Shown one piece after another: positions 5,914 through 28,255 of a stretch of 29,018 nucleotides of DNA. The notes under the pieces were generated by a model that did no database searches, had not been told where the DNA came from, and saw nothing but the letters and a program-made list of their open reading frames with translations. Source of the stretch: a virus. Position 1 is the stretch's first letter, and each line of letters starts with the position of its first letter. The translations under genes and the position numbers were made by a program. The stretch is taken from positions 1 through 29,018 of the IMG/VR virus record IMGVR_UViG_3300038713_000106; one strand, written 5' to 3'.

Positions 5914-7340
5914 TGGCGTTTACAATAGAACAAAAACCAAATCAATTAGCGGGAGCAAATAACCCTATGATCTTTGTATTAAAAGAAAGCACAACAATTA
6001 TAAACGACCCTAAATTTAAGTATGTAGCTAAAATATATAAAAGTACAACTAACGCTAGTACTTGGTCTTTATTAACAACTATAAAAGTGCCTAAAAATAA
6101 TGCTGGAGTTGGTATAATAGATATACACAAAATAGTAAAAACAAGTTTAGAAACACAATTAAAAGATGTAGGTAATCAAGAATCAATAGACGGTTCTATA
6201 CATTCAATAGGTAAAAATGACACGTCTAATATATATTCTCAAAATACAAGTCAAGTAGTAGGAATAAAAGTAGAGGGGGGTTACGAAAAAGCCACGTCAC
6301 AAACTACCGCTCCCGTTGTTACTTTGCCTAGTGGTGGTGTAGACGGAGCTAGTGAAATTATATATTCTATTCCCGCAACTACACCTTTTACCGATACGGG
6401 TACAAACGAGGGCGGGTTAGACATTGACGGAACAAATAACCCAATGACTAAATATATACCTCAAAGTATAGTAAAACAATTTTTAACTAATAGTCCAACA
6501 TATCAATTTGTTAGAGGTGGTAATTCTTCTAGTGATAATGTAGACGAATTAACGTTAGCTTTTATACAAGACGGGTTAATTACTGACGGATCGCCAATAG
6601 AAAAAATAAACGTTAGCTATTATTTAGCTGACGGAACACTAATAAATAGTGTAGATATTAGCAACGTTACGGGTGTAGGTGGTAAAGCTAGTGCTGACGA
6701 CGTAAAAAATAGTTTAATATATTTTGGGGCGGGTACATACAACTTGCAAAATTTTGATAATGGTGGTACAAATCTACAAAGACCTAGCAACAATACTAAT
6801 TGGGCGTACTATACAATTAAAGGACAAGCTACAAGTGGCGGAGCTAGAACAAAAACCTATTACTTTTATAGATATGGAGCTGGAATTACGGGCGTAGAGG
6901 ATAGACACCAAAGTTGCAATAAATACGACAATATTAGGTTAGCTTGGCGTAATAGGTTAGGTTGTTGGGATTATATGAATTTTCGGGGTAAGTCTATGGA
7001 AAGCATAGATATAAAAAGCGAAGAAATGGAAAGAGTAGTAGGAAGTTGGAATAGTGCTACGTTTACTTATGAAAACTTTGATAGGGGTAGAGAAACTTTA
7101 TTTACAGAAGCACAAAGAAAGTTAGTTGTTAATACTGATTGGTTAAATGAAGACGAGGGTGCTTGGCTAGAAGAATTGTTTACGTCTACTAACGTACATT
7201 TACTAGATGATAATAGTATTGTGTACCCAATGATAATTACTAATAAAAATTACACAAAAAAAACAAGCGTAAACGATAAAATGAAAATACAATATACTAT
7301 AAATTTAGAGTACGCTAATAAAGTAAAAACGAATAGCTAA
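5913..7340 (+). CDS. Tail structural protein (distal tail/baseplate type), 475 aa
   Basis: The protein begins MAFTIEQKPNQLAGANNPMI and has a serine/threonine/glycine-rich beta-strand composition with no signal peptide. A conserved-looking core near residues 330-360 reads HQSCNKYDNIRLAWRNRLGC followed by WDYMNF, and the C terminus contains WLNEDEGAWLEELFTS and TINLEYAN. The WxNxxGxWDYxNF arrangement is familiar from tail proteins of flavobacterial siphoviruses that lie directly upstream of the large tail-tip gene. It may form the distal tail ring or an upper baseplate layer. It overlaps both neighbours by one base, indicating coordinated translation with them. Confidence 0.65.
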   Translation: MAFTIEQKPNQLAGANNPMIFVLKESTTIINDPKFKYVAKIYKSTTNASTWSLLTTIKVPKNNAGVGIIDIHKIVKTSLETQLKDVGNQESIDGSIHSIGKNDTSNIYSQNTSQVVGIKVEGGYEKATSQTTAPVVTLPSGGVDGASEIIYSIPATTPFTDTGTNEGGLDIDGTNNPMTKYIPQSIVKQFLTNSPTYQFVRGGNSSSDNVDELTLAFIQDGLITDGSPIEKINVSYYLADGTLINSVDISNVTGVGGKASADDVKNSLIYFGAGTYNLQNFDNGGTNLQRPSNNTNWAYYTIKGQATSGGARTKTYYFYRYGAGITGVEDRHQSCNKYDNIRLAWRNRLGCWDYMNFRGKSMESIDIKSEEMERVVGSWNSATFTYENFDRGRETLFTEAQRKLVVNTDWLNEDEGAWLEELFTSTNVHLLDDNSIVYPMIITNKNYTKKTSVNDKMKIQYTINLEYANKVKTNS

Positions 7341-10300
7341 TGAATGTTAGACTTGTAGCATACCGTAGAGAAAATGATAGCTCCGCACCTTTTGAAGTCG
7401 AGCAATACGAATTAGATTTACAACAAGCTCCTAATGTAGTTGTAAATTATAATTTTTTAGATTTAAAAAATCCAGATCAAAGAAAGGCTAATTTTAGCCA
7501 AACAATTAAGCTACCTTTTTCGAACCGCAACAATGATTTTTTTGAAAACTATTTTGACGTTAATTTAGAAACGTTAGTATATAATGCTCAAACTAAATTT
7601 CAAGCTATACTATATATAGATAGTGTACCACAACTAAAAGGTTTTTTACAACTAAAAGCTATATATTTAAATAAAAGATTATACGAAATAGCTTTATTTG
7701 GTAATACTGCGGATTTTTTTACTGACCTTAAAGATAAAAGACTACAAGACGCTTTTAAAAATGTAAATGAAACTACGGGAGCAATAACAGACGACAAGCA
7801 ATTAGACCACATTCTATCAGTAGACAATATTATTAATAGTTGGACAACGGGAATTACTACTACGGAAGACACGCCAACTACTACAAACGATATAATGTAC
7901 CCAATTATAGACTATGGACATTCTAATCAACCTTTAAGCTCGTCTATGTTTTGGTCGCCCGAAGACTTTGTAGATGAAATTGGATATTCTAATACTGATT
8001 TATTTGTAGACTATTTAGAGATTTTAAACGGTATGAACCAATACGGGATTATAAGACCTAGTATGCTTAAACCCGCTATAAGAATACAAAGATTATTTAG
8101 AATAATAACACAAAAAGCCGGGTATCAAATTAAAAGTACATTTTTAGGAATTGACGACACAAATGTTTCTACACCCGTCACCGATACTCAATGGTTTAGT
8201 AGGTTGTTTATGACTTTAGCACCGCAATTTGAAAGAGTGCAAACTAAATTTGAAACAGCAACGTCTACTACGGGAGCTTTTGTTGGTTTTAAAGGAGAAC
8301 AAGAGGTAGTTACACCTATTGCTACTGTTCCTTTTTCGGGTGATTCTGTTGGTGAGATTTGTTATCAAGGTCTTATTTGTAGTGAAGTTTACGACCCGAA
8401 TAATATGTTTTTTCCAGATCTATCGGCTTTACCTTTTGACCTTGCTTTACCCACAAATGTACCCTTTGCTCCCGCAATACTTTTTAATACTACACAAGAT
8501 ATTACACAAACAGACGCTCAATTGCCTTTTGGTTGGGTTAGTATCGAAACAAAATTTACTTTACTAATACCGCCTACGGCTTATTTAAGTAGCGACCCAA
8601 TAGATTCTATTAATGTTCAAGTGGCTTGGTACGAATATTCATATGCTAGTACGTTATTAGATTCAACAACTTTTACTTTAACGCCGGGAACACACGATAT
8701 TCAAACAGTAAGTGAATTATGGGCGGGTGGTCCTCAAATGGCGTGTTATTTAGTTGTTGTTTTTTATGGTGCTGAAAGTACGGGTAATTTAAGTGGTGAT
8801 ACATTTCAACCCATTATAACCGATTTATCAATACAAAGTTTAGGCACGGGAGAAACAGGTATGTTTAGTGGTTTTGAAAAAGGTGAAGTTACTATGTTTC
8901 ACAATATGCCCGATATGAGCCAAGCGGACTTTGTAAAAGACCTTTTAAATAGATTTAATTTAATTATAAAAACAGACCCCGATAACGAAAAATTATTATT
9001 AATAGAGCCATATCAAGATTTTATAAATGAGGGTACAACTAAATATTGGACGGAAAAATTAGACGTTTCTAAAGAGCAAGTAGTTAGGTCTACTAATGAA
9101 ATACAAAGTAAAATTTTAAGTTTTAAAGATTTAGAAGACAAAGACTTTTTGAATGATAGATACACAAAACAACAAAATGTAGTATATGGTGAGCGACGTA
9201 GAATAATGAATAATGATTTTTCAAACGGAGAATTTAGCAACTTTAGTGTTATGTCGCCTTTTATAGCACAAGGATTACCACATTGGGATACAAACGGTAT
9301 AAATTCAGCTATGCCCGACCAAAACGTAGCTATTGCTTATATGTTTGAAGCGGAAGAATACGGTGTTAGAAAAGTACCAAGCGGTATGAAACCTAAATTA
9401 TTTTATTATTCGGGTACACCAATAGAATTTACGGGTACTAATCCGATAACTAACAACGCTTATAAATTTGCAATATATTCAAATTCATTTATATCTAGTT
9501 TAGATGTAGACAGTTTCTACAAATTTGTTAACCCTAGTTCACCCACTACTATTAAATTTCCTTTGTGTTTACAATACAATTTAGACAACTTAAATACGGG
9601 TGTAGTAGCCGACACAAAAATAGTTAATTGGACTTATTATAGTCCGTCTTTTAATACGGGATTTACATTTAACTACTTTGGTAATTTACCTAGTAATAAA
9701 GGTTTTTATAATGAGTATTGGGCACAGTATATAAACGAGATATACGACAAGGACGCTAGGATTATGGAGTGTTATGTAAATTTAGACCCCGAAGACATAA
9801 GAACTTTTGAGGGTTCGGGATTTCAAGATACATATTTTATAAAGAATTGTTTATGGAGAGTTCTTAGTATAGATAATTATTTAGTAGGTGGTAACAAGTC
9901 TACTAAAGTAAAACTAATGAAAGTTATAGAAAGGTTAGAAACGGGTTGTGACGCTATACACACAACAACACAAACGGGTTTAATGACTTGGGTAGATAGT
10001 GCTACGGGTTTAGCAACAACTATAACTAACGAATGTTGTACGCAACAAAATCCTAATTGGATTTTTGTAGAAACTAACTCTACTACGGGCGAAGGTGATT
10101 GTTATGAGTTTTTAGTAAATCAAGATAATAGTGGTGGTGACGGCACTGTACCAACATATACCGATTTTGGATTTACACAAGTGCCTATGTTACCTTATAA
10201 CAATACGCCAAATAATACATTTATTCCAGCTCTAATGCCTAATATAGAAAACAACTTTCCTATTAGTGCTATGAGAAGAAATGCACAAGAAACTAGAGCT

Positions 10301-16907: not shown

Positions 16908-17508
16908 TTTAGAATTTACGGGTACTATGCCCCCTACTGTATTAGGTGGTAGTGTAACTTTTTATGAAAACTTAAATAGTTTAGTAGATATACCAAATAC
17001 AAAATATATTATAGCTTTGTGTAGATCAAGAAAAACAAATATAACAAGATGTGTTACAACTTTTCCAGTTGACGGTAGTAATGATATAGATAATCCCGTT
17101 TATTTTAATAATGATAGATTTTGGAAATTTCGTATTACTTTTTTATTTGCTAAAAAAAGTATAAGAAATATATATGACAATTCTGTAAATAGGAAATTAA
17201 GTTTAGTTTGTATGCCTACTGACGATACAATAGACATAGATTTATATTATCATTCTTTAAATAGTTATTTATTTAGCTCAGCCGACCCGTCACAAGAAGT
17301 TTTAACAAAAATAGAGGGTACTAATATAGTAGTTAATTTAAAGTGTAAAGAGGATTATGTGCAAAAGGGCGATTTTCCAGTTAGTTTTTTTACAGAATAT
17401 AATGATAATGACGTTGTACCTATAATTCCTAGTACAGATAGTGGGCAACCCGCTTCTGACCAAGAAGAATTAAATGCTCAATACGGAACACAAACATACG
17501 AAGTATAA
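16894..17508 (+). CDS. Hypothetical structural-region protein, 204 aa
   Basis: The product starts MGMYNLEFTGTMPPTVLGGS (a second ATG at 16900 is equally good) and is rich in beta-forming segments: VTFYENLNSLVDIPNTKYII, RFWKFRITFLFAKKSIRNI, SFFTEYNDNDVVPIIP. It has no signal peptide or membrane segment. Its C-terminal quarter is acidic and polar (STDSGQPASDQEELNAQYGT). I do not recognise a family. It directly precedes the portal gene (one base between the stop and the portal ATG), so a neck, portal-associated or head-completion role is plausible but unproven. Confidence 0.7.
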   Translation: MGMYNLEFTGTMPPTVLGGSVTFYENLNSLVDIPNTKYIIALCRSRKTNITRCVTTFPVDGSNDIDNPVYFNNDRFWKFRITFLFAKKSIRNIYDNSVNRKLSLVCMPTDDTIDIDLYYHSLNSYLFSSADPSQEVLTKIEGTNIVVNLKCKEDYVQKGDFPVSFFTEYNDNDVVPIIPSTDSGQPASDQEELNAQYGTQTYEV

Positions 17509-17509
17509 A

Positions 17510-19678
17510 ATGAAGAAAAAAGACAACATATCGGTTATACATTTGGCGGAATATAATCTACCAACTATAAAAGAAGTAAATAACAAAGACTATATTGAGT
17601 TTGGAGCGGATAATATGTACCCTCAATATTTATTAGAGCTATACAATGGTAGTAGTATAAACAACGCTATTATAAAAGGTGTTAGTAGTATGATTTATGG
17701 AGAGGGTTTAGACGCTACCGATAGAGAAAAAGACGATAATAAAAAACAAAGTTGGTTAGCTTTAAACACTTTACTACATAATTCACCAAAAGATACGTTA
17801 AAATGTTTAGCATTTGATTTAAAACTATTTGGAATGTGTTACATTAATACTATATGGAACAGACCAAGAACAAAAATAGTAGAAGTAAGACATATTCCAG
17901 CTCAATATATAAGAAGTGGTAAAGCGGACGCTTACGGTAAAGTAAATAATTACTATTATAGTGCGAATTGGGAAAACACAAGAAAACATAAACCAAGATA
18001 TTATAAAGCATTTGATTTAAAAGATAGGTCGGACGCTAATCAAGTGTTATGTATAAAGGATTATAGCCCTGGTACTTTTTACTATGCTACACCCGACTAC
18101 CAAGGTTCTACTAGCTATATACAATTAGATATGGAAATAGCTCAATTTCACTTGTCAAATATAAAAAGTGGTATGTTTCCTAGTATGGCTATAAATATGG
18201 CTAACGGAATACCTACACAAGAAGAAAGAAGAACAATAGAAAGACAAATAAATACTAAATTTGGCGGTAGTGGTAATGCGGGTAAAATACTATTAACGTT
18301 TAACGACGGTAAAGATACCGCTCCAGAAATAGTACCTATTAACGCTAATGACAATAGCGATAGTTACCAATTTTTATCACAAGAAACTACAAGAAAGGTT
18401 TTGACGGGTCATAGGGTAACAAGTCCTTTACTATTTGGTGTAAAGGGTGACGGATCTGGATTTGGTAATAATGCTGACGAATTAAGAGATAGTTACAGTT
18501 TATTTAACAATACTGTAATTAAACCATTTCAAAACACGCTTTTAGAGGGTTTAGAGCCAATATTTCACGCTAACGACATAAACCTAGATTTATACTTTAA
18601 AACGCTAAAACCCGCTGATTTTATAGATATTGGAAATGTAGATAAATTAGATGAAGAAGAACAAGAAAAAGAGGGAATAGATACGGGTGATGAAATTAAA
18701 AAAGAATTTAAGGCGTTAGACGACATAGATACAAAGCCAACTAAAGGAATGATAGAAGAAGCTAAAAAGGGTTTAGAATGGCGTAAAGAATACGGTCGAG
18801 GTGGTACTATGGTTGGTGTAGCTAGAGCTAGAGATATTGCAAATGGTAAAAACTTGTCTATATCTACAATAAAACGAATGAATAGTTTTTTTGCTAGACA
18901 CGAAAAAAGTAGTAAACAAGGAGAGGGTTTTGAACCAGGCGAGGACGGATTTCCGTCAAGAGGTCGTATAGCTTGGGCGTTATGGGGCGGTGACGCTGGG
19001 CAAAGTTGGTCAAAAAAAAAAGTCCAAGAAATAGAAAACGTTGAAGAATTAACTGAATTATCGGACGAACAATTTGATGAGGTTTTAAGCAAATTAGACG
19101 GACAACAAATAAATAGTGAAGAATGGGAAATAGTAGATGAAAGAGATTATGGTAGTAAAGAAAGTTACGAAGATTGGGCAAATAGATTAATACAAAAAAA
19201 AGAAAATTTTGCGGTTAATGAAATTAAATCTAATGAAGACAAATTTAGCTATTTAGACAAAGCTATATATAGAGTTAGGTTTAAATATGCGGTAGGATCA
19301 ACAAAAGCAAAAAAAACTGGTAAAAGTAGACCGTTTTGTGAAAATATGATGAGATTAAGTAGAGGTGGTTTTGTATGGAGAATAGAAGACATAGACAATG
19401 CTAGTCGAAGCGGTGTTAATAAGCAATTAGGACATAAAGGTAAAAAATATGATTTATTTAAGTTTAAAGGCGGGGTTTATTGTAGACATAAATGGAAAGA
19501 AATACTATATAGACTTAAACAAGGTACAGAATTAAAAGACGGACAAAGTTTAGATAATGATTATAACAAAGTTAATAGTATTCCTAAAAGTTATGTAAGA
19601 AGTCCTAGAGGAATTAAAGAAAGTAAAATAGCTCCCGTAAATATGCCTAACCAAGGGGCATACCCGGGAAAAAAATAA
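17510..19678 (+). CDS. Portal protein fused to two extra C-terminal domains
   Basis: The 722-residue protein has a portal core in its first 380 residues (YIEFGADNMYPQYLLELYNG near the start, then GVSSMIYGEGLDATD and ETTRKVLTGHRVTSPLLFG). Two further domains follow. About 408-505: KGMIEEAKKGLEWRKEYGRG, VGVARARDIANGKNLSISTI, then SRGRIAWALWGGDAGQSW, a block I know from head proteins of many phages but cannot name. About 578-670: YRVRFKYAVGSTKAKKTGKS, SRPFCENMMRLSRGG, GVYCRHKW, resembling a minor-head (MuF-like) module with conserved C and H. The start at 17510 is preferred to an upstream ATG (17474) that lies in the previous gene. The portal ring forms the DNA gate of the head. Confidence 0.82.
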   Translation: MKKKDNISVIHLAEYNLPTIKEVNNKDYIEFGADNMYPQYLLELYNGSSINNAIIKGVSSMIYGEGLDATDREKDDNKKQSWLALNTLLHNSPKDTLKCLAFDLKLFGMCYINTIWNRPRTKIVEVRHIPAQYIRSGKADAYGKVNNYYYSANWENTRKHKPRYYKAFDLKDRSDANQVLCIKDYSPGTFYYATPDYQGSTSYIQLDMEIAQFHLSNIKSGMFPSMAINMANGIPTQEERRTIERQINTKFGGSGNAGKILLTFNDGKDTAPEIVPINANDNSDSYQFLSQETTRKVLTGHRVTSPLLFGVKGDGSGFGNNADELRDSYSLFNNTVIKPFQNTLLEGLEPIFHANDINLDLYFKTLKPADFIDIGNVDKLDEEEQEKEGIDTGDEIKKEFKALDDIDTKPTKGMIEEAKKGLEWRKEYGRGGTMVGVARARDIANGKNLSISTIKRMNSFFARHEKSSKQGEGFEPGEDGFPSRGRIAWALWGGDAGQSWSKKKVQEIENVEELTELSDEQFDEVLSKLDGQQINSEEWEIVDERDYGSKESYEDWANRLIQKKENFAVNEIKSNEDKFSYLDKAIYRVRFKYAVGSTKAKKTGKSRPFCENMMRLSRGGFVWRIEDIDNASRSGVNKQLGHKGKKYDLFKFKGGVYCRHKWKEILYRLKQGTELKDGQSLDNDYNKVNSIPKSYVRSPRGIKESKIAPVNMPNQGAYPGKK

Positions 19679-20263: not shown

Positions 20264-20386
20264 ATGATAACAAAACAAAAGGTAAAAGAAAGAAAAAAAA
20301 ATATTAATAAACTTAAAACATATTTAAGAAAAAATGGCTTCACAAAGACTAACAGACAAAACGGCTCTAGCCGAACCGACCGCTAA
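20264..20386 (+). CDS. Possible 40-aa basic peptide
   Basis: An ATG one base after the connector stop opens a 40-residue frame, MITKQKVKERKKNINKLKTY then LRKNGFTKTNRQNGSSRTDR. It is very basic and helical. The second half overlaps the start of the fibre-like gene by 53 bp, which is more than usual for this genome, so it could be non-coding leader DNA. Its regular spacing from the upstream stop argues for translation. Confidence 0.4.
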   Translation: MITKQKVKERKKNINKLKTYLRKNGFTKTNRQNGSSRTDR

Positions 20387-20858
20387 AGACGATTTATATA
20401 TGATTGTCGATAAGTCCGATACTACGGGTAGTAGTGCGGGAACAAGTAAAAAAATCGACGCTAAATTTATTATACAAACTGATATAGTAACGGGTAATTT
20501 AGACTTAAATACTAATCCTTTAACTTTAGTAGCACAACCTGGACTTGGTTATATAGTACAACCTCTTTCTATTACTGTTTTATATACTTTTAATACTATA
20601 CCAAGTCCAACAGCAAATAATGTGTATATAAATTATGATAGTAGTGATCCAACCGAATATTTAGTAAGACAAAGAGATTTTATTAGAAATGATTCCGCTA
20701 GTAGAACTTATCAATTTGGTGCTTCTGGCTTTACTACCGGTGACGGAGTTTATGCGGGAAGTATAGAAAATAGAGCGCTAGTAATGTGGGCAACTGCTGA
20801 TTTAGGTGGTAATGGTGCTTTTAAAGTTTATGTAACATATCAAATAGTAAAATTATAA
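20334..20858 (+). CDS. Fibre-like virion protein, 174 aa
   Basis: The N terminus, LTDKTALAEPTAKDDLYMIV followed by DKSDTTGSSAGTSKKIDAK, is the kind of short attachment segment found in head-fibre or tail-fibre proteins of Bacteroidota phages. The rest is beta-rich, with many polar and glycine residues (RTYQFGASGFTTGDGVYAGS, LVMWATADLGGNGAFKVYVT), consistent with a small trimeric head domain. It has no signal peptide, so it should be a cytoplasmically assembled virion part. Position after the connector and before the envelope module fits an adsorption or decoration protein. Which structure carries it cannot be told. Confidence 0.62.
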   Translation: MASQRLTDKTALAEPTAKDDLYMIVDKSDTTGSSAGTSKKIDAKFIIQTDIVTGNLDLNTNPLTLVAQPGLGYIVQPLSITVLYTFNTIPSPTANNVYINYDSSDPTEYLVRQRDFIRNDSASRTYQFGASGFTTGDGVYAGSIENRALVMWATADLGGNGAFKVYVTYQIVKL

Positions 20859-21886
20859 TGGAAACGTCTAAATATATATACGCTTTACTAATAATTATAA
20901 TATTAGGATTTGGTACTTGTCAAGCACAGTTTTTTAAATACGCTACTTTTTATACTACTATGAGTATAAATACAAGTATGATAGAAGACCAAGATTATAT
21001 AGCAATTAATAAAGGTTATGAAGAAACTACACAAATTAATTTGTACGACTACGACTTTACTATTGGGATTCGTAAAATCGCTAGGTTTGACTTTGAGCAA
21101 AAACTTAAAACTTGGTACTATGGTAATGAGCAAAGCGTTAGCGATTATACTACTATTGGTAATAATAGCGGTTGGGAGTATTTACTTAATTACTCTTTTA
21201 TTCGTAATAGGTCTGAAAAATTTACTAATCAAGATTTTTGGATTAGATATTTAGGAAATAATGGAGTTACAAAAATACAAATAAAGAATGATGAAGCACG
21301 GGATTTACAATTTACTTCATTTGATACTAGATATAGATTAAATAAAGGTCGTTGGGATTTTAGTTTAGGTGTGGTTGGTAGAAGCCATAGAGTTTACGGC
21401 TATAATCCTATTGAAGAAACTTGGGAAGTTGGCGAAGAAAGTTTTTTTGATCTGGCTAATGACTTTGGTTATAGTAGTCAATTTATAAATGGTCGTTTTC
21501 ATTGGTTTAAAAATGGTGAATTATTAGCAACGTCAAATGACGAATTTTTTAAACATTATTTCGGCTCGGCAATAGCTCAATATAATCAAAACGAAATAGA
21601 CGCTTTAGGTAGCGTATATGAGCTTTCTGCGGTGTTTGGAATGTCTTACTATAAGTATAGTAATGATTTTTGGCTTTTAAGTTGGGTAAATGTAATGCCG
21701 TATCATTACGGTTTAAATAAATTTAGTTATGAATACGACGATTTACCAATAGATTTAGATTTAGGACTTGTTACGGGTTGGAAAATAACAAAGTCGTTAG
21801 GTGTATTTATTGAGGGTACATATTTACGTTATTGGGAGAAACCTATATACGAGTGTAAATTAGGGTTTAATTATTTAATATTTTAG
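20858..21886 (+). CDS. Exported outer-membrane beta-barrel-like protein
   Basis: The 342-residue product has a signal peptide (YIYALLIIIILGFGTCQA, then cleavage near Gln24). The mature part is a series of alternating polar/hydrophobic aromatic strands, such as YDFTIGIRKIARFDFEQKLK, FTSFDTRYRLNKGRWDFSLG and YELSAVFGMSYYKYSNDFWL, and ends in the aromatic signature FNYLIF with a terminal Phe recognised by the outer-membrane insertion machinery. No enzyme motif is seen. It opens the envelope module, one base overlapping the fibre gene. Possible roles are outer-membrane disruption at lysis, receptor masking (superinfection exclusion), or a host-derived porin-like protein. A virion role is unlikely because of the signal peptide. 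Confidence 0.7.
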   Translation: METSKYIYALLIIIILGFGTCQAQFFKYATFYTTMSINTSMIEDQDYIAINKGYEETTQINLYDYDFTIGIRKIARFDFEQKLKTWYYGNEQSVSDYTTIGNNSGWEYLLNYSFIRNRSEKFTNQDFWIRYLGNNGVTKIQIKNDEARDLQFTSFDTRYRLNKGRWDFSLGVVGRSHRVYGYNPIEETWEVGEESFFDLANDFGYSSQFINGRFHWFKNGELLATSNDEFFKHYFGSAIAQYNQNEIDALGSVYELSAVFGMSYYKYSNDFWLLSWVNVMPYHYGLNKFSYEYDDLPIDLDLGLVTGWKITKSLGVFIEGTYLRYWEKPIYECKLGFNYLIF

Positions 21887-21888
21887 TT

Positions 21889-22398
21889 ATGAAAAAGTTG
21901 TTATTATTTTTTGTGTTTAGTTTTGGTTTTAGCCAAACAAATTGTGAATTATGCGTTGAGCAAAATGGCTTTTATTGTGGTGATGATGAAGCTAATTGGA
22001 CACAATATAGTCCTAACGGTTGTGTACCTAATGGTTTGAATGATTTATTTTATTTAAATGACGGTTGGCTTGATTGTGTAGACGGTTCAGACGAACAAAA
22101 CGCTACACCTACTACTTTAGCGGATTGTGATATATACAATATTGGCGATACTATATTTATAACTGACACTCTTTATATTAATGTTATTGACACTTTGTAT
22201 ATAAATACTATTGACACCTTAACTATAACCGAATATATAGATTGTTTAACCGGTATGCCTTGTGATAATACGGGTATAATAGAAATACTTAAAAAATCAC
22301 AAAACAAAAATAAAATATATAACATTGAGGGTAAAGAAATATACAGACGTAAAGGGTTATATATAGAGAATGGAAAAATTAACTTTAAATTAAAATAA
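21889..22398 (+). CDS. Secreted protein with LDL-receptor-A-like motif, octapeptide repeats and sorting-like tail
   Basis: Residues 1-17 form a signal peptide (LLLFFVFSFGFSQ). Eight cysteines (19, 22, 30, 45, 63, 80, 119, 125) suit an extracytoplasmic disulfide-bonded protein. Residues 56-69, LNDGWLDCVDGSDE, resemble the Ca-binding end of LDL-receptor class A modules (DCxDGSDE). Residues 91-114 are three octapeptide repeats with consensus xxDTLYIN. The last 27 residues (IYNIEGKEI, then GLYIENGKINFKLK) resemble the C-terminal type A sorting domain used by the Bacteroidota type IX secretion system, but are shorter than a full domain. It follows the barrel gene by two bases. Function unknown; the features point to the cell surface. 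Confidence 0.68.
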   Translation: MKKLLLFFVFSFGFSQTNCELCVEQNGFYCGDDEANWTQYSPNGCVPNGLNDLFYLNDGWLDCVDGSDEQNATPTTLADCDIYNIGDTIFITDTLYINVIDTLYINTIDTLTITEYIDCLTGMPCDNTGIIEILKKSQNKNKIYNIEGKEIYRRKGLYIENGKINFKLK

Positions 22399-22400
22399 AT

Positions 22401-22586
22401 ATGAAAGAAGTAATAATGAAAATGGTAAACAGTAGAAAATTTTGGTATGGATTCTCTATACTAATGGTAATAATGTTTTCCGAAGATTTAGGAATTAGTG
22501 AAACAAAAATGAATAGTTTGCTTGTTGTGGGTGTAGCTTTAATTATAGGGCAAGGACTAGCGGACAAATCTTGTAATATGAAATAA
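22401..22586 (+). CDS. Small two-TM membrane protein (holin-type candidate)
   Basis: The 61-residue protein (alternative ATGs at 22416 and 22422) has two hydrophobic segments, FWYGFSILMVIMF and SLLVVGVALIIGQGLA, separated by a polar turn (SEDLGISETKMN), with a basic N terminus. Size, topology and location in the lysis region fit a small holin or a membrane accessory of one. It lies two bases after the secreted protein. The later three-TM protein (23811) is the better holin candidate, so this may be an antiholin or pinholin, which is inference. Confidence 0.6.
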   Translation: MKEVIMKMVNSRKFWYGFSILMVIMFSEDLGISETKMNSLLVVGVALIIGQGLADKSCNMK

Positions 22587-22587
22587 A

Positions 22588-22863
22588 ATGGCTACGGAAA
22601 TTTCAGAAAACACTAAACTACAACTCAATATTAAAACAATAATAGCTATTATAGTTTTAGTTAGTAGCTTTGTTGGTCAATACTATGTTTTAAGTAATGA
22701 AATAGAACTAGCAAAACGTTTGCCCGAATCGGAAATATCTAGGTCGGAGCTGGATTTAAAGCTAGAATTAATTAGTAAAACTGTTATGTCTAACGCTGAA
22801 AAACTAGGAAAAATAGAAAACCAAGTAGAAAAAATTGAGGAAAGGGTTTACGAATTAAAATGA
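22588..22863 (+). CDS. TM plus coiled-coil membrane protein (spanin-like candidate)
   Basis: The 91-residue product has a short cytoplasmic N terminus, one hydrophobic segment (TIIAIIVLVSSFVGQYYVL) and a charged coiled coil (residues 37-91, with heptads in LELISKTVMSNAEKLGKIEN). The topology is that of an inner-membrane spanin or of a small lysis regulator; no lipoprotein partner with a clear lipobox is nearby, though the next gene is exported. It lies one base after the 61-aa gene and its stop overlaps the next ATG in ATGA fashion. Confidence 0.62.
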   Translation: MATEISENTKLQLNIKTIIAIIVLVSSFVGQYYVLSNEIELAKRLPESEISRSELDLKLELISKTVMSNAEKLGKIENQVEKIEERVYELK

Positions 22864-23210
22864 AATTTCTAAAATACATACTATTATTGTTGGTAAGCGG
22901 ATATTGTTGCGGTCAAGAAATTAGAGGGTCTAATGGAATATTAGTCGTAGAGTTCTACGCTGATTGGAATAAACATAATTCTTGCAAATATTTAGAACAA
23001 CTAAAAGAGTGTAAAACTCTAAAAGTTAATATAGATAAAAAAAAAGATTTACAAGAAGAATATAATATAGAGGTCTTACCAACTTTAATAGTTTTTAACA
23101 ATTCGGTCGAAATATGCCGATTTAAAGGTAATTTATTATTTCAATTAAATGTTGAAAAGAAAGAAGTACAAGCTAAAATAGATAGTATAATAATAAGTAA
23201 ATTTAGATAA
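22860..23210 (+). CDS. Exported thioredoxin-fold protein without the catalytic CxxC
   Basis: A signal peptide (FLKYILLLLVSGYCCG) is followed by a thioredoxin-like core: ILVVEFYADWNKHNSC, KTLKVNIDKKKDLQEEYNI, then VLPTLIVFNNSVEICRFKG with the cis-proline loop VLPT. At the position of the WCGPC motif it reads WNKHNSC, so the active-site cysteine pair is lost. It is therefore a thioredoxin-fold binding protein, not an oxidoreductase. Its coding overlaps the coiled-coil gene (ATGA) and the enzyme gene after it (1 bp). Export and position suggest a periplasmic role in the envelope module, perhaps as a scaffold or chaperone. Confidence 0.72.
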   Translation: MKFLKYILLLLVSGYCCGQEIRGSNGILVVEFYADWNKHNSCKYLEQLKECKTLKVNIDKKKDLQEEYNIEVLPTLIVFNNSVEICRFKGNLLFQLNVEKKEVQAKIDSIIISKFR

Positions 23211-23824
23211 TGAATTTAACACGAGAGTTAATAGAAAAAACTGTAAAAGATAAGGGTTACAATTGGTTTGAAAAAGGCGATTATAATTTAAACATTGTAG
23301 GCGTTAGAAATAGCTCTACGGGTGACGAGGTTACTAATAAATTTGACGATAAAATAACACTTTCTTACAAAGTAGACGGTAAATGGGAATTTTATAGTTT
23401 TGACGCTACAACAGACCCAGGGCGTTATTGGGTAGAAAATATAATGAGAGTAGAGGGCGTAGCGTGTATGAAGCCTGGACAATATAAAGCATATAGAATA
23501 GACAAGCATAGAGGAAACTATGACGCTCTTTGTCAAAGAGAGGGCGAGGTTACAGTATATAGAGATAACAATAAGGACGGTTGTTACGATTTAGACGATA
23601 ATAATACACAAACGGGATTTTTTGGTATAAATATACATAGAGCTACGGCTAGAGAAAAGAAAAAGTCTACACAAGTAGATAAATGGAGTGCGGGTTGTCA
23701 AGTAATAGCAAGTAATGACGATTGGAACGATTTTATTTTTGCTTGTTATAAAGCAAAAGAAATTTGGGGTAATAAGTTTACATATACATTAATTAATAGC
23801 GACGATATTTATGGGGATATTTAA
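23210..23824 (+). CDS. L,D-transpeptidase-like cell-wall enzyme (probable endolysin)
   Basis: The 204-residue protein has a YkuD-type catalytic signature: a histidine in GINIH followed 16 residues later by SAGC (about residues 143-163), the H-x(16)-S-x-G-C pattern where Cys is the nucleophile. Upstream are RYWVENIMRVEGVACMKPGQ and HRGNYDALCQREGEVTVYRD. A loop D-N-N-K-D-G-C-Y-D-L-D-D (near 119-130) resembles an EF-hand calcium loop. No signal peptide is present, so it would need the holin to reach peptidoglycan, as endolysins do. It lies between the exported thioredoxin-like gene and the holin, overlapping both. The enzymatic class is inferred from the motif; hydrolysis versus transpeptidation is undecided. 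Confidence 0.68.
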   Translation: MNLTRELIEKTVKDKGYNWFEKGDYNLNIVGVRNSSTGDEVTNKFDDKITLSYKVDGKWEFYSFDATTDPGRYWVENIMRVEGVACMKPGQYKAYRIDKHRGNYDALCQREGEVTVYRDNNKDGCYDLDDNNTQTGFFGINIHRATAREKKKSTQVDKWSAGCQVIASNDDWNDFIFACYKAKEIWGNKFTYTLINSDDIYGDI

Positions 23825-24194
23825 AAAATTATTAGGCACAGATAAAGTTATAGATAGCGTAGGTAATATTATAGACGGGTTAGTTACAAACAAAGAAGAA
23901 AAGCTAAACGCTAAAGCTAAAATAAAAGAAATAATGAACTCTTATAAAATAGAGGTTGAAAAAAACATTACGGCACGTTGGGAAGCTGACGCTAACGGAA
24001 ATGCACTTACCAGATCCGTAAGACCACTTGTACTTATATTTCTTATAGTTTGTACTATGCTACTTGTATTTATTGATAGCGGTAGTATAGCTTTTGAAGT
24101 AGCGGACAAATGGACGGATTTACTACAATTAACTTTAATAACAGTAATAGGAGCTTATTTTGGCGGTCGTTCGGTTGAAAAACTAAAAAAGTAA
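23811..24194 (+). CDS. Holin of the three-TM/gene-transfer-agent type
   Basis: The 127-residue product has an amphipathic N-terminal part (FKKLLGTDKVIDSVGNIIDG) and a conserved block GNALTRSVRPLVLIFLIVC, then LLVFIDSG, and a last membrane helix QLTLITVIGAYFGGRSVEKL. The RSxRPxxLIxL, YFGGRSxEK pattern is that of the 3-TM holin family known from gene transfer agents and many phages. It overlaps the endolysin-like gene by 14 bp, a usual holin/lysin pairing. It should form the membrane lesions that release the lysin. Confidence 0.82.
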   Translation: MGIFKKLLGTDKVIDSVGNIIDGLVTNKEEKLNAKAKIKEIMNSYKIEVEKNITARWEADANGNALTRSVRPLVLIFLIVCTMLLVFIDSGSIAFEVADKWTDLLQLTLITVIGAYFGGRSVEKLKK

Positions 24195-27020: not shown

Positions 27021-27809
27021 ATGAAAAAATCAATACTAGCAACTACGCCTTTTTTAATTATAAATAAATGTCTTCTCGTTAATTTAGGCGTAGACGCTAG
27101 TTTAGTTTTATCGGATTTAATTCAAAAAGAACAATACTTTAAAGATAGCTCCCAAAATAACGGGGGCTATTTTTTTAATGTAACAAATGACATTAGTTGT
27201 AGTACCACCCTTTCGTATTACCAAATTAAACAAGCACTTTCTGTGCTAGAAAAATGGGGCATAATTCAAGTAGTATTAAAGGGTGTACCAGCTAAAAAAC
27301 ATTTTAAGATAGATCATTCCCAGATATTAAATTTTTTAAATACTAGAATTGAAAAAACTGAAGAACTAGATTGTAAAAATTTTAATAACAAGATATTAAA
27401 AAACTCAAACTCTATTAATAATAATAAAGAAATAAAAATTAAAAATAAAAAAGTATATACACGCAAAGAAAAATTTTTAAATGACATAAAAGAATTAGAA
27501 CCCAAAGAACATATAGAGGACTTTGTTGATTATTGGACTGAAGAAAATAATGTAGGTAAACAACGTTGGGAATTAGAGAAAACTTGGAATACTAATTTAC
27601 GATATAAACGTTGGTGTAGAAATCAAAAAAACTTTAGTAAAGGAAGTAATGCAAATACTATGCCCGATTTTTTAGATAGTGCTTATATAAATAGAATTAA
27701 AGACGACCAAGCACAAGTAAATAAGTTTTATAAGCATTTAGTAGAAAATTGTGGTTATGAACGTATAGAAACGGCTACGGGATATATTAGGTATAGAAAA
27801 AGGATATGA
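27021..27809 (+). CDS. Replication initiation protein
   Basis: The 262-residue protein has a winged-helix-type N-terminal half: LGVDASLVLSDLIQKEQYFK, ISCSTTLSYYQIKQALSVLE, then KWGIIQVVLKGVPAKKHFKI, the order of initiator/replisome-organiser proteins. A low-complexity asparagine/lysine linker (about residues 120-155) follows, and a C-terminal domain contains DFVDYWTEENNVGKQRWELE followed by KTWNTNLRYKRWCRNQKNF, common in helicase-loading initiators. No phage polymerase or helicase is encoded, so it should recruit the host replisome. The linker DNA (27381-27460) is very AT-rich and may include the origin, as in other phages with the origin inside the initiator gene. Confidence 0.78.
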   Translation: MKKSILATTPFLIINKCLLVNLGVDASLVLSDLIQKEQYFKDSSQNNGGYFFNVTNDISCSTTLSYYQIKQALSVLEKWGIIQVVLKGVPAKKHFKIDHSQILNFLNTRIEKTEELDCKNFNNKILKNSNSINNNKEIKIKNKKVYTRKEKFLNDIKELEPKEHIEDFVDYWTEENNVGKQRWELEKTWNTNLRYKRWCRNQKNFSKGSNANTMPDFLDSAYINRIKDDQAQVNKFYKHLVENCGYERIETATGYIRYRKRI

Positions 27810-28255
27810 ATAAACAACAAATAAAATTATTTAGTAGTAAAAAAACGGATAATTGGTCTACTCCTAATTATTTATATAAAGAGTTAGATCAAGAATTTAA
27901 TTTTGATTTTGACCCTTGTCCGTTAAACTCTACTTTTGACGGATTAAAAATACAATGGGGTTTAAGAAACTTTGTTAATCCACCTTATAGTAATGTTGTT
28001 GGTTTTTTACAAAAAGCTCATTATGAACTAGAACACGGTATAGCCGAAATTTGTGTATTTTTAACTTTTGCTAATACAGATACTAAATGGTTTCACAAAT
28101 ACTGTTATAATATAGGTGAATTAAGATTTATAAAAGGTAGGTTAAAATTTGTAGACGAAAACGGTATAACAAAAAATTCAGCTATGCGTCCGTCTATGTT
28201 AGTAATTTTTACAAGAGAAAATATAGAAATACACAAATATAGAAAAACAATATGA
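27806..28255 (+). CDS. dam: DNA N6-adenine methyltransferase (Dam-type phage family)
   Basis: The 149-residue product has the small phage Dam pattern: DNWSTPNYLYKELDQEFNFD, FDPCPLNSTFDGLKIQWG, and the catalytic motif FVNPPYSNVVGFLQKAHYEL (NPPY, about residues 52-55). Further motifs ELRFIKGRLKF and SAMRPSMLVIF follow. Phage enzymes of this family usually methylate adenine in GATC; that target is not provable here. It overlaps the replication initiator (ATGA) and a micro-protein after it. GATC appears under-represented in the genome, making the target of interest. Confidence 0.88.
   Translation: MNKQQIKLFSSKKTDNWSTPNYLYKELDQEFNFDFDPCPLNSTFDGLKIQWGLRNFVNPPYSNVVGFLQKAHYELEHGIAEICVFLTFANTDTKWFHKYCYNIGELRFIKGRLKFVDENGITKNSAMRPSMLVIFTRENIEIHKYRKTI

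Follow-up and report, generated by a model that had tools for sequence, protein, structure and literature searches.

Short C-terminal domains (CTDs) acting as signals for type IX secretion (T9SS) have been described in Prevotella intermedia, where they measure 40-51 aa, have an invariant Gly and a strongly conserved Tyr in motif B, 1-6 residues between this motif and motif D (GxY, then Ile), and a basic motif E (PMC11969387). Such a short CTD forms a single sheet whose three strands correspond to strands 3, 6 and 7 of the long CTDs (PMC11969387). GFP was secreted in P. gingivalis with just the 22 C-terminal residues of a CTD (PMC4804311), so a minimal signal of the size of the tail described below is plausible. 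Type B T9SS cargo is paired with PorP/SprF barrels (PMC9143113, PMC12618676), and among phages the one known as Cryophage encodes T9SS cargo in variable accessory genes (PMC7468147). Phage-encoded T9SS cargo is thus already known; the protein family that we describe here and the gene cassette around it appear undescribed, as we found neither a phage LDLa (LDL-receptor-A) protein nor a comparable cassette in the open-access literature. We propose, tentatively and with slightly more doubt than conviction, that the product of the gene starting at 21889 would be exported by T9SS and kept at the cell surface as a stalk bearing a calcium head, its late production serving to change the surface of the infected cell.

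The window analyzed is the entire IMG/VR record, 29,018 bases, with terminase, head protease and portal genes upstream of 21889. At its C terminus the 734-aa portal protein (17474-19678) carries an additional part matching phrog_2859 (416-535), as if another phage protein had been fused to it, and DNA-methyltransferase-like fragments are found near both ends of the record (212-541 and 27806-28255). The run of genes from 20334 to 24194 is tight (gaps of -14 to 2 bases) and contains the following features.

20858..21886, + strand: outer-membrane (OM) beta-barrel gene, 342 aa, with signal peptide and C-terminal Phe; assigned from AF2, Foldseek and linkage
21889..22398, + strand: coding sequence, 169 aa, ATG start; signal peptide, LDLa-like head, stalk and short-CTD-like tail
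21889..21933, + strand: signal peptide (residues 1-15), read from the sequence, with probable cleavage before the invariant Q16
21934..22128, + strand: LDLa-like N-domain (residues 16-80), with Cys 19/22/30/45/63/80 and invariant D58, D62, D68 and E69 at Ca-ligand positions
22021..22095, + strand: equivalent of the LDLa stretch from Cys3 to SDE (residues 45-69), with N57 at the Cys4 position, from alignment to PF00057 and PDB LDLa
22129..22239, + strand: acidic beta-repeat stalk (residues 81-117) with DTLYIN octapeptides, without Lys, Arg or His
22240..22263, + strand: DCLTGMPC (residues 118-125), a Cys pair joining stalk and tail; C119 and C125 in 63/63
22273..22395, + strand: short-CTD-like tail (residues 129-169), modelled as a helix followed by three strands, with YNxxGxxI, GxYI and a basic end
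22401..22586, + strand: 61-aa membrane protein, weakly holin-like at best, linked in 30-kb phages
22588..22863, + strand: putative inner-membrane-anchored protein ending in a coiled coil (phrog_20984, E 3e-7; topology and coiled coil predicted from sequence)
22860..23210, + strand: thioredoxin-fold protein with signal peptide (PF00085, E 1.4e-9), without CxxC
23210..23824, + strand: endolysin/peptidase-like gene (phrog_3000, 1.8e-34; phrog_33083, endolysin, 1.5e-16)
23811..24194, + strand: holin (phrog_3427, 5.4e-25; PF11351, 2.5e-5)

A scan of IMG/VR found relatives of the 21889 protein at 70 viral loci, at 37-99% identity. When the N-domain only was used, 213 stretches were found to encode it, 80 of which were fetched as a second set; in all, about 140 uncultivated viral contigs were read. 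The family is absent from 50,697 GenBank phage records (a single match, E 0.8, was at chance level), and a search of genomes for close relatives of the protein found nothing. The first-pass annotation of this DNA, made from its letters, had described a product with a signal peptide and eight cysteines in a phage lysis region, and all of this was borne out. The signal peptide is MKKLLLFFVFSFGFS, followed by Q16, which is present in 63/63 distinct relatives; the eight Cys (19, 22, 30, 45, 63, 80, 119, 125) are all in the mature part and equally invariant (63/63 each); and the genes downstream include one for a peptidase/endolysin-like product (23210) and one for a holin (23811). The parts come in one order in every complete member: signal peptide first, then the Cys-rich head, the stalk, DCxTGxPC and the tail. 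The dN/dS ratio is 0.126 for the gene as a whole and ranges from 0.11 to 0.15 among its segments, indicating selection on every part of the protein, and the gene is under strong purifying selection. The AF2 model of the full-length protein, with a mean pLDDT of 48 and an unreliable head and stalk, was too poor for a fold search.

The same annotation had likened the last stretch, IYNIEGKEI..GLYIENGK (residues 143-163), to a T9SS sorting domain. The standard models TIGR04183 and PF18962 matched no member of the family in a profile scan, which counts against a T9SS tail by the measure that the annotation had itself proposed, profile similarity to sorting domains; what survives of the claim is the fit to the short CTDs of Prevotella and the resemblance to C-terminal tails in the PDB. 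Residues Y144, G148, Y158, I159 and G162 are invariant in the 63 distinct sequences, the gap between the tail motifs is 4 residues in 122/122 members, and the chain ends 9-11 residues past GxYI. K167 is found in 60/63, and the terminal residue is K or R in 75/122 members and something else in the other 47, a point against the T9SS reading. Thus, of the features of short CTDs, the tail has motif B (Y..G), motif D (GxY-I), a gap within 1-6 aa, the C-terminal position and, in part, motif E; the AF2 model of this region (helix plus three strands, pLDDT 73-83) adds the three-stranded sheet. Searching the PDB with the tail profile, the top match was ERIYDLSGRLVTTPLQKGIYIRNGK in 4kca (E 0.024, residues 655-679 of 692) and the second was in 7jvi (E 0.27, residues 812-840 of 847). 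Both matches are the C-terminal tails of their proteins, an endo-arabinanase and a beta-helix protein, respectively, which we take to be of Bacteroidota type; the reversed profile, used as a control, gave zero matches.

Comparisons with cellular CTDs gave evidence for and against such a tail, with marginal scores. A profile of 29 cellular CTDs placed family members first and in most of the top 25 positions among 4,357 viral ORFs, at E values of 0.06-0.2 that are marginal, and when the tail profile was run against cellular CTDs together with 1,500 decoys, CTDs filled 10 of the 14 best positions (one cellular CTD, L195, had been picked by pattern and was excluded from this ranking). Two results count against a T9SS tail. 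By hhalign the tail aligned with cellular CTDs marginally and over the first motif only. Across 395 Bacteroidota genomes the tail profile recovered no CTDs, giving weak internal matches to its last 12 positions only, four of the five coming from a single family of unrelated proteins; the DNA pattern for GxYIxNGKK had a single C-terminal match in these genomes, L195. Judged by its sequence, the tail appears to fit the short T9SS signal class of Prevotella, and we regard T9SS-dependent display of the protein at the surface as somewhat probable. A further signal-peptide, Cys-rich protein, located between the barrel and the LDLa gene in another contig (L079, 341-853), ends in GVYIDIFGRRHSTPPKGLSIMNNQKYLRL, which looks like a second short T9SS tail, here attached to another kind of protein.

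Regarding the host, the portal is closest to that of Nonlabens phage P12024S, and the closest named phages for the terminase are Bacteroides phages. Cellular homologues of the LDLa-like head occur in small Flavobacteriales MAGs that have 27-29 TIGR04183 matches, and one of these homologues itself ends in a T9SS CTD (17.7 bits, below the cut-off and in N-rich sequence). The host is likely a T9SS-bearing marine flavobacterium.

The gene immediately upstream (20858) codes for a protein modelled by AF2 with moderate confidence (pLDDT 68.5) as a barrel that has about 12 strands and a further domain inserted, for which Foldseek retrieved generic OM barrels (NanC, FapF, autotransporter domains) at E about 1e-4; together with this fold it has the signal peptide and the C-terminal aromatic residue of OM barrels. 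Linkage to 21889 is constant, the barrel gene being directly 5' of the homologue in 66/66 loci. In the second set it was upstream at 76 loci, and where there was enough flank it was two genes away or closer in 69/73 cases and three or four genes away in the other four. Its identification as PorP/SprF was considered and rejected, none of 34 members being matched in a Pfam scan; this result and the generic nature of the Foldseek matches count against the display reading. No relatives of the barrel were found in cultured phages, and its best viral structure match, A0A516LKJ4 (33% identity, 342 aa, E 1.7e-26, model m33dbdb9949de), was not found in the phage collection.

Downstream of 21889, genes of the 22588 and 22860 types usually follow, each in 59 second-set loci. 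The barrel, 21889, the coiled-coil and the thioredoxin-like genes persist as a four-gene set while the neighbouring structural genes differ, and a holin is near the set in only 23 second-set loci; we therefore consider it an envelope cassette that is often, and not always, beside the lysis genes. The set is carried by many uncultivated phages, whose hosts are probably marine flavobacteria. The OM barrel, the coiled-coil and pseudo-thioredoxin genes, as well as the Lys/Arg-free stalk and its variation in length (see below), go beyond what the first-pass annotation had noticed. In the 22860 product WNxxN replaces WCGPC, the C terminus NIMFQL..KK.VQ..ID...KF is conserved, and CxxC is present in 0/124 relatives. 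A role as an active disulfide isomerase for the Cys-rich cargo was rejected on this last count, and the family appears to be a redox-dead periplasmic thioredoxin of phages. In many relatives (contigs L025-L055) the position of the endolysin-like gene (23210-23824) is taken by ORFs of 149-178 aa unrelated to it, which looks like an exchange of lysins next to a constant cassette.

In the 30-kb phages the endolysin and the holin adjoin the cassette, and this neighbourhood is accounted for equally well by the main rival of surface display, in which the four envelope proteins would form a trans-envelope complex that disrupts the OM at lysis, as a spanin substitute; the tail would then bind the phage barrel or stay in the periplasm and be no T9SS signal. 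The 22588 product is laid out like an i-spanin (a predicted N-terminal membrane helix and coiled coil), all the envelope layers are represented among the cassette proteins, and the window has no recognisable spanin of the conventional type. However, no OM lipoprotein was recognised either, many larger phages have the cassette without a recognised holin or endolysin, an LDLa head with calcium ligands has no role in a spanin, and the tail fits a T9SS signal. We consider a lysis device unlikely, even as the strongest of the alternatives.

The LDLa-like character of the head, which the first-pass annotation had read from the acidic stretch LNDGWLDCVDGSDE (residues 56-69), turned out to be a matter of homology and not of canonical membership. 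LDLa is a calcium-binding module known above all from the LDL receptors of animals. PF00057 matched residues 58-71 of the 21889 product with E 0.079 and 13.6 bits, below the cut-off of 24.1; similar sub-cut-off matches were found in 25/37 relatives (best E 7e-4), and the best score in the phage family, 20.1 bits, is still under the gathering cut-off. The head profile, on the other hand, retrieved from the PDB 28 matches (best E 0.0039), all of them LDLa-type proteins judging by their names. The residues D58, D62, D68 and E69, which we take, by analogy with LDLa structures, to be the calcium ligands, are present in 63/63 distinct sequences, and short-form members such as that of contig L046 (CVPNNWINDGWVDCVDSSDE) keep the LDLa spacing CxxxxWxCDGxxDCxDxSDE with Asn for Cys4. 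This substitution is found in 63/63 relatives, so the canonical set of six Cys, paired 1-3, 2-5 and 4-6, is not complete and the head cannot be called a canonical LDLa.

Cellular proteins with the same head also turned up in the genome scan. The head of one of them, from a Marinimicrobiota MAG (L153), reads DCAAIGGFYCGDDESNWTSWSPNGCVVSSYICDGYGDCADASDEAGC and combines the signature of the phage family (CGDDESNWT..SPNGCV) with all six LDLa cysteines; it exceeds the PF00057 cut-off, scoring 26.9 bits when the domain is taken by itself and 47.6 over the protein. Since this sequence is an intermediate, common ancestry of LDLa and the phage-family head is very likely, and the sequences support an LDLa-derived head with its calcium-ligand residues intact. 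The phage and Flavobacteriales heads have lost Cys4, their last head Cys is displaced (residue 80 here), and they have one more Cys near the N terminus; that a 19-80 disulfide compensates is a guess. The L153 protein (7218-9344) has canonical six-Cys LDLa domains together with lamin-tail domains and an ExeM-like match. In two Flavobacteriales MAGs (L187 and L189) the same head immediately follows the signal peptide, just as it does in phage members, and these cellular proteins are possible donors or recipients.

The presence of the N-domain in cellular Flavobacteriales and Marinimicrobiota proteins would suit a captured host surface protein (a moron or auxiliary gene), displayed by T9SS and changing adhesion, aggregation or nutrient binding instead of phage adsorption, and Cryophage provides a precedent in its T9SS cargo enzymes (PMC7468147). 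Against this, 21889 is constant in one cassette across phages of otherwise different content, its strong purifying selection is unlike the variable Cryophage cargo, and its position looks late, so that we find such a capture quite improbable. Conservation and barrel linkage across phages that otherwise differ in gene content indicate that the cargo likely serves the infection itself.

The stalk varies in length. Of the three xxDTLYIN repeats that had been reported, at about residues 91-114, two agree exactly with the motif (ITDTLYIN, VIDTLYIN) and the third is a variant (TIDTLTIT); their number is not a fixed property, as the stalk measures 16-184 residues between head and tail throughout the family, with an alternating beta-type sequence (DTVYVE, ETEYIT, DTLFID). 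Not a single Lys, Arg or His was found among 10,843 stalk residues from 138 proteins. Asp and Glu make up 23% of the stalk residues, and Lys and Arg 15% of those of the tails. The window protein (169 aa) and its L046 relative (236 aa) have near-identical tails and 85% identical barrels, and despite this they differ by entire stalks; since close relatives can differ in this way, stalk length appears free to change while the ends are fixed. The longest Lys/Arg-free run in the window (131 aa) is that of the 21889 protein. The notion that such a run is peculiar to this gene was rejected, as two other window proteins show runs of 113 and 107; the unusual feature is the absence of Lys and Arg across the whole family, rather than the length of the run in the window.

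The variable stalk, together with the conserved LDLa head and the barrel, would be left unexplained if the protein were a T9SS blocker, its short tail occupying the shuttle or translocon and shutting down host secretion; short CTDs have been modelled binding PorV as the long ones do (PMC11969387) and a small, abundant late protein could compete, and still we hold this to be very improbable. Least probable of all is a virion component (fibre or decoration) exported incidentally, which would agree with the location of 21889 directly after structural genes (portal 17474) and sits badly with the signal peptide, the disulfide-rich design and the membrane and periplasmic proteins encoded by the linked genes.

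Returning to surface display, we envisage the following sequence of events. Produced late, alongside the lysis genes, the 21889 protein would be taken by Sec to the periplasm, where the pseudo-thioredoxin and the membrane-anchored coiled coil may act as folding or hand-over factors. The tail of about 40 residues would be a short T9SS signal in which the strands correspond to 3, 6 and 7 of a type A CTD. The translocon of the host, assumed to have a T9SS, would then move the protein over the OM. There the tail would retain it at the surface, by the usual linkage to lipopolysaccharide or by the phage's own barrel, the latter option being modelled on type B cargo held by PorP/SprF barrels. With the tail at the membrane, the N-terminal head would fold with seawater calcium at the distal end of the stalk. 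In the last and least certain step, acidic stalk and head might mask or occupy receptors, so that progeny or rival phages fail to adsorb to infected cells and debris. This effect is suggested by the position, acidity and calcium site of the protein and by what surface proteins that phages make late would generally be expected to do; granted display, we see the case for adsorption blocking as evenly balanced. The complete scheme, in which a dedicated and widely shared cassette remodels the surface of infected Bacteroidota by hijacking T9SS, with the OM barrel as private shuttle or anchor, and a calcium-dependent LDLa-type head on a length-tuned stalk free of Lys and Arg blocks adsorption, is a doubtful one, more probably wrong than right in some of its parts.

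If true, the phages would possess a system founded on the takeover of type IX secretion, and the cassette would show how Bacteroidota phages act on the exterior of their hosts. The family is also a rare prokaryotic and phage branch of LDLa, with a natural intermediate showing the loss of one disulfide, and offers natural length variants of a Lys/Arg-free stalk.

Compared with known systems, the head resembles LDLa (PF00057) in the spacing from Cys3 through SDE, the calcium-ligand residues and an N-terminal F-x-C, and departs from it in the Asn for Cys4, a Cys6 moved by about 8 residues, the additional N-terminal Cys and a longer Cys2-Cys3 stretch. As in two-component spanins (Rz/Rz1), envelope proteins adjoin endolysin and holin and one member is a candidate inner-membrane coiled-coil protein, but no OM lipoprotein was recognised in the cassette, and this member is accompanied by a barrel, a pseudo-thioredoxin and a stalk protein with predicted export. 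Type B T9SS cargo shares with 21889 the adjacency of an exported-type gene and an OM barrel gene; here, however, the barrel is upstream and not downstream, is not PorP/SprF by Pfam, and the tail resembles type A or short signals. Like the T9SS cargo of Cryophage, the 21889 product is phage-encoded, with a T9SS signal predicted from sequence, but the Cryophage cargo, which bears type A signals, consists of enzymes that vary and of a PA14 protein, whereas 21889 sits in one conserved cassette with no recognised enzyme. There is a further likeness to the short CTD cargo of Prevotella intermedia, with which it shares a signal peptide and the Y..G, GxY-I and basic motifs of the tail. It differs in being a phage gene missed by the standard CTD models, with export predicted only, in having a helix ahead of the first strand of the tail and in the terminal basic residue, missing from some members of the family.
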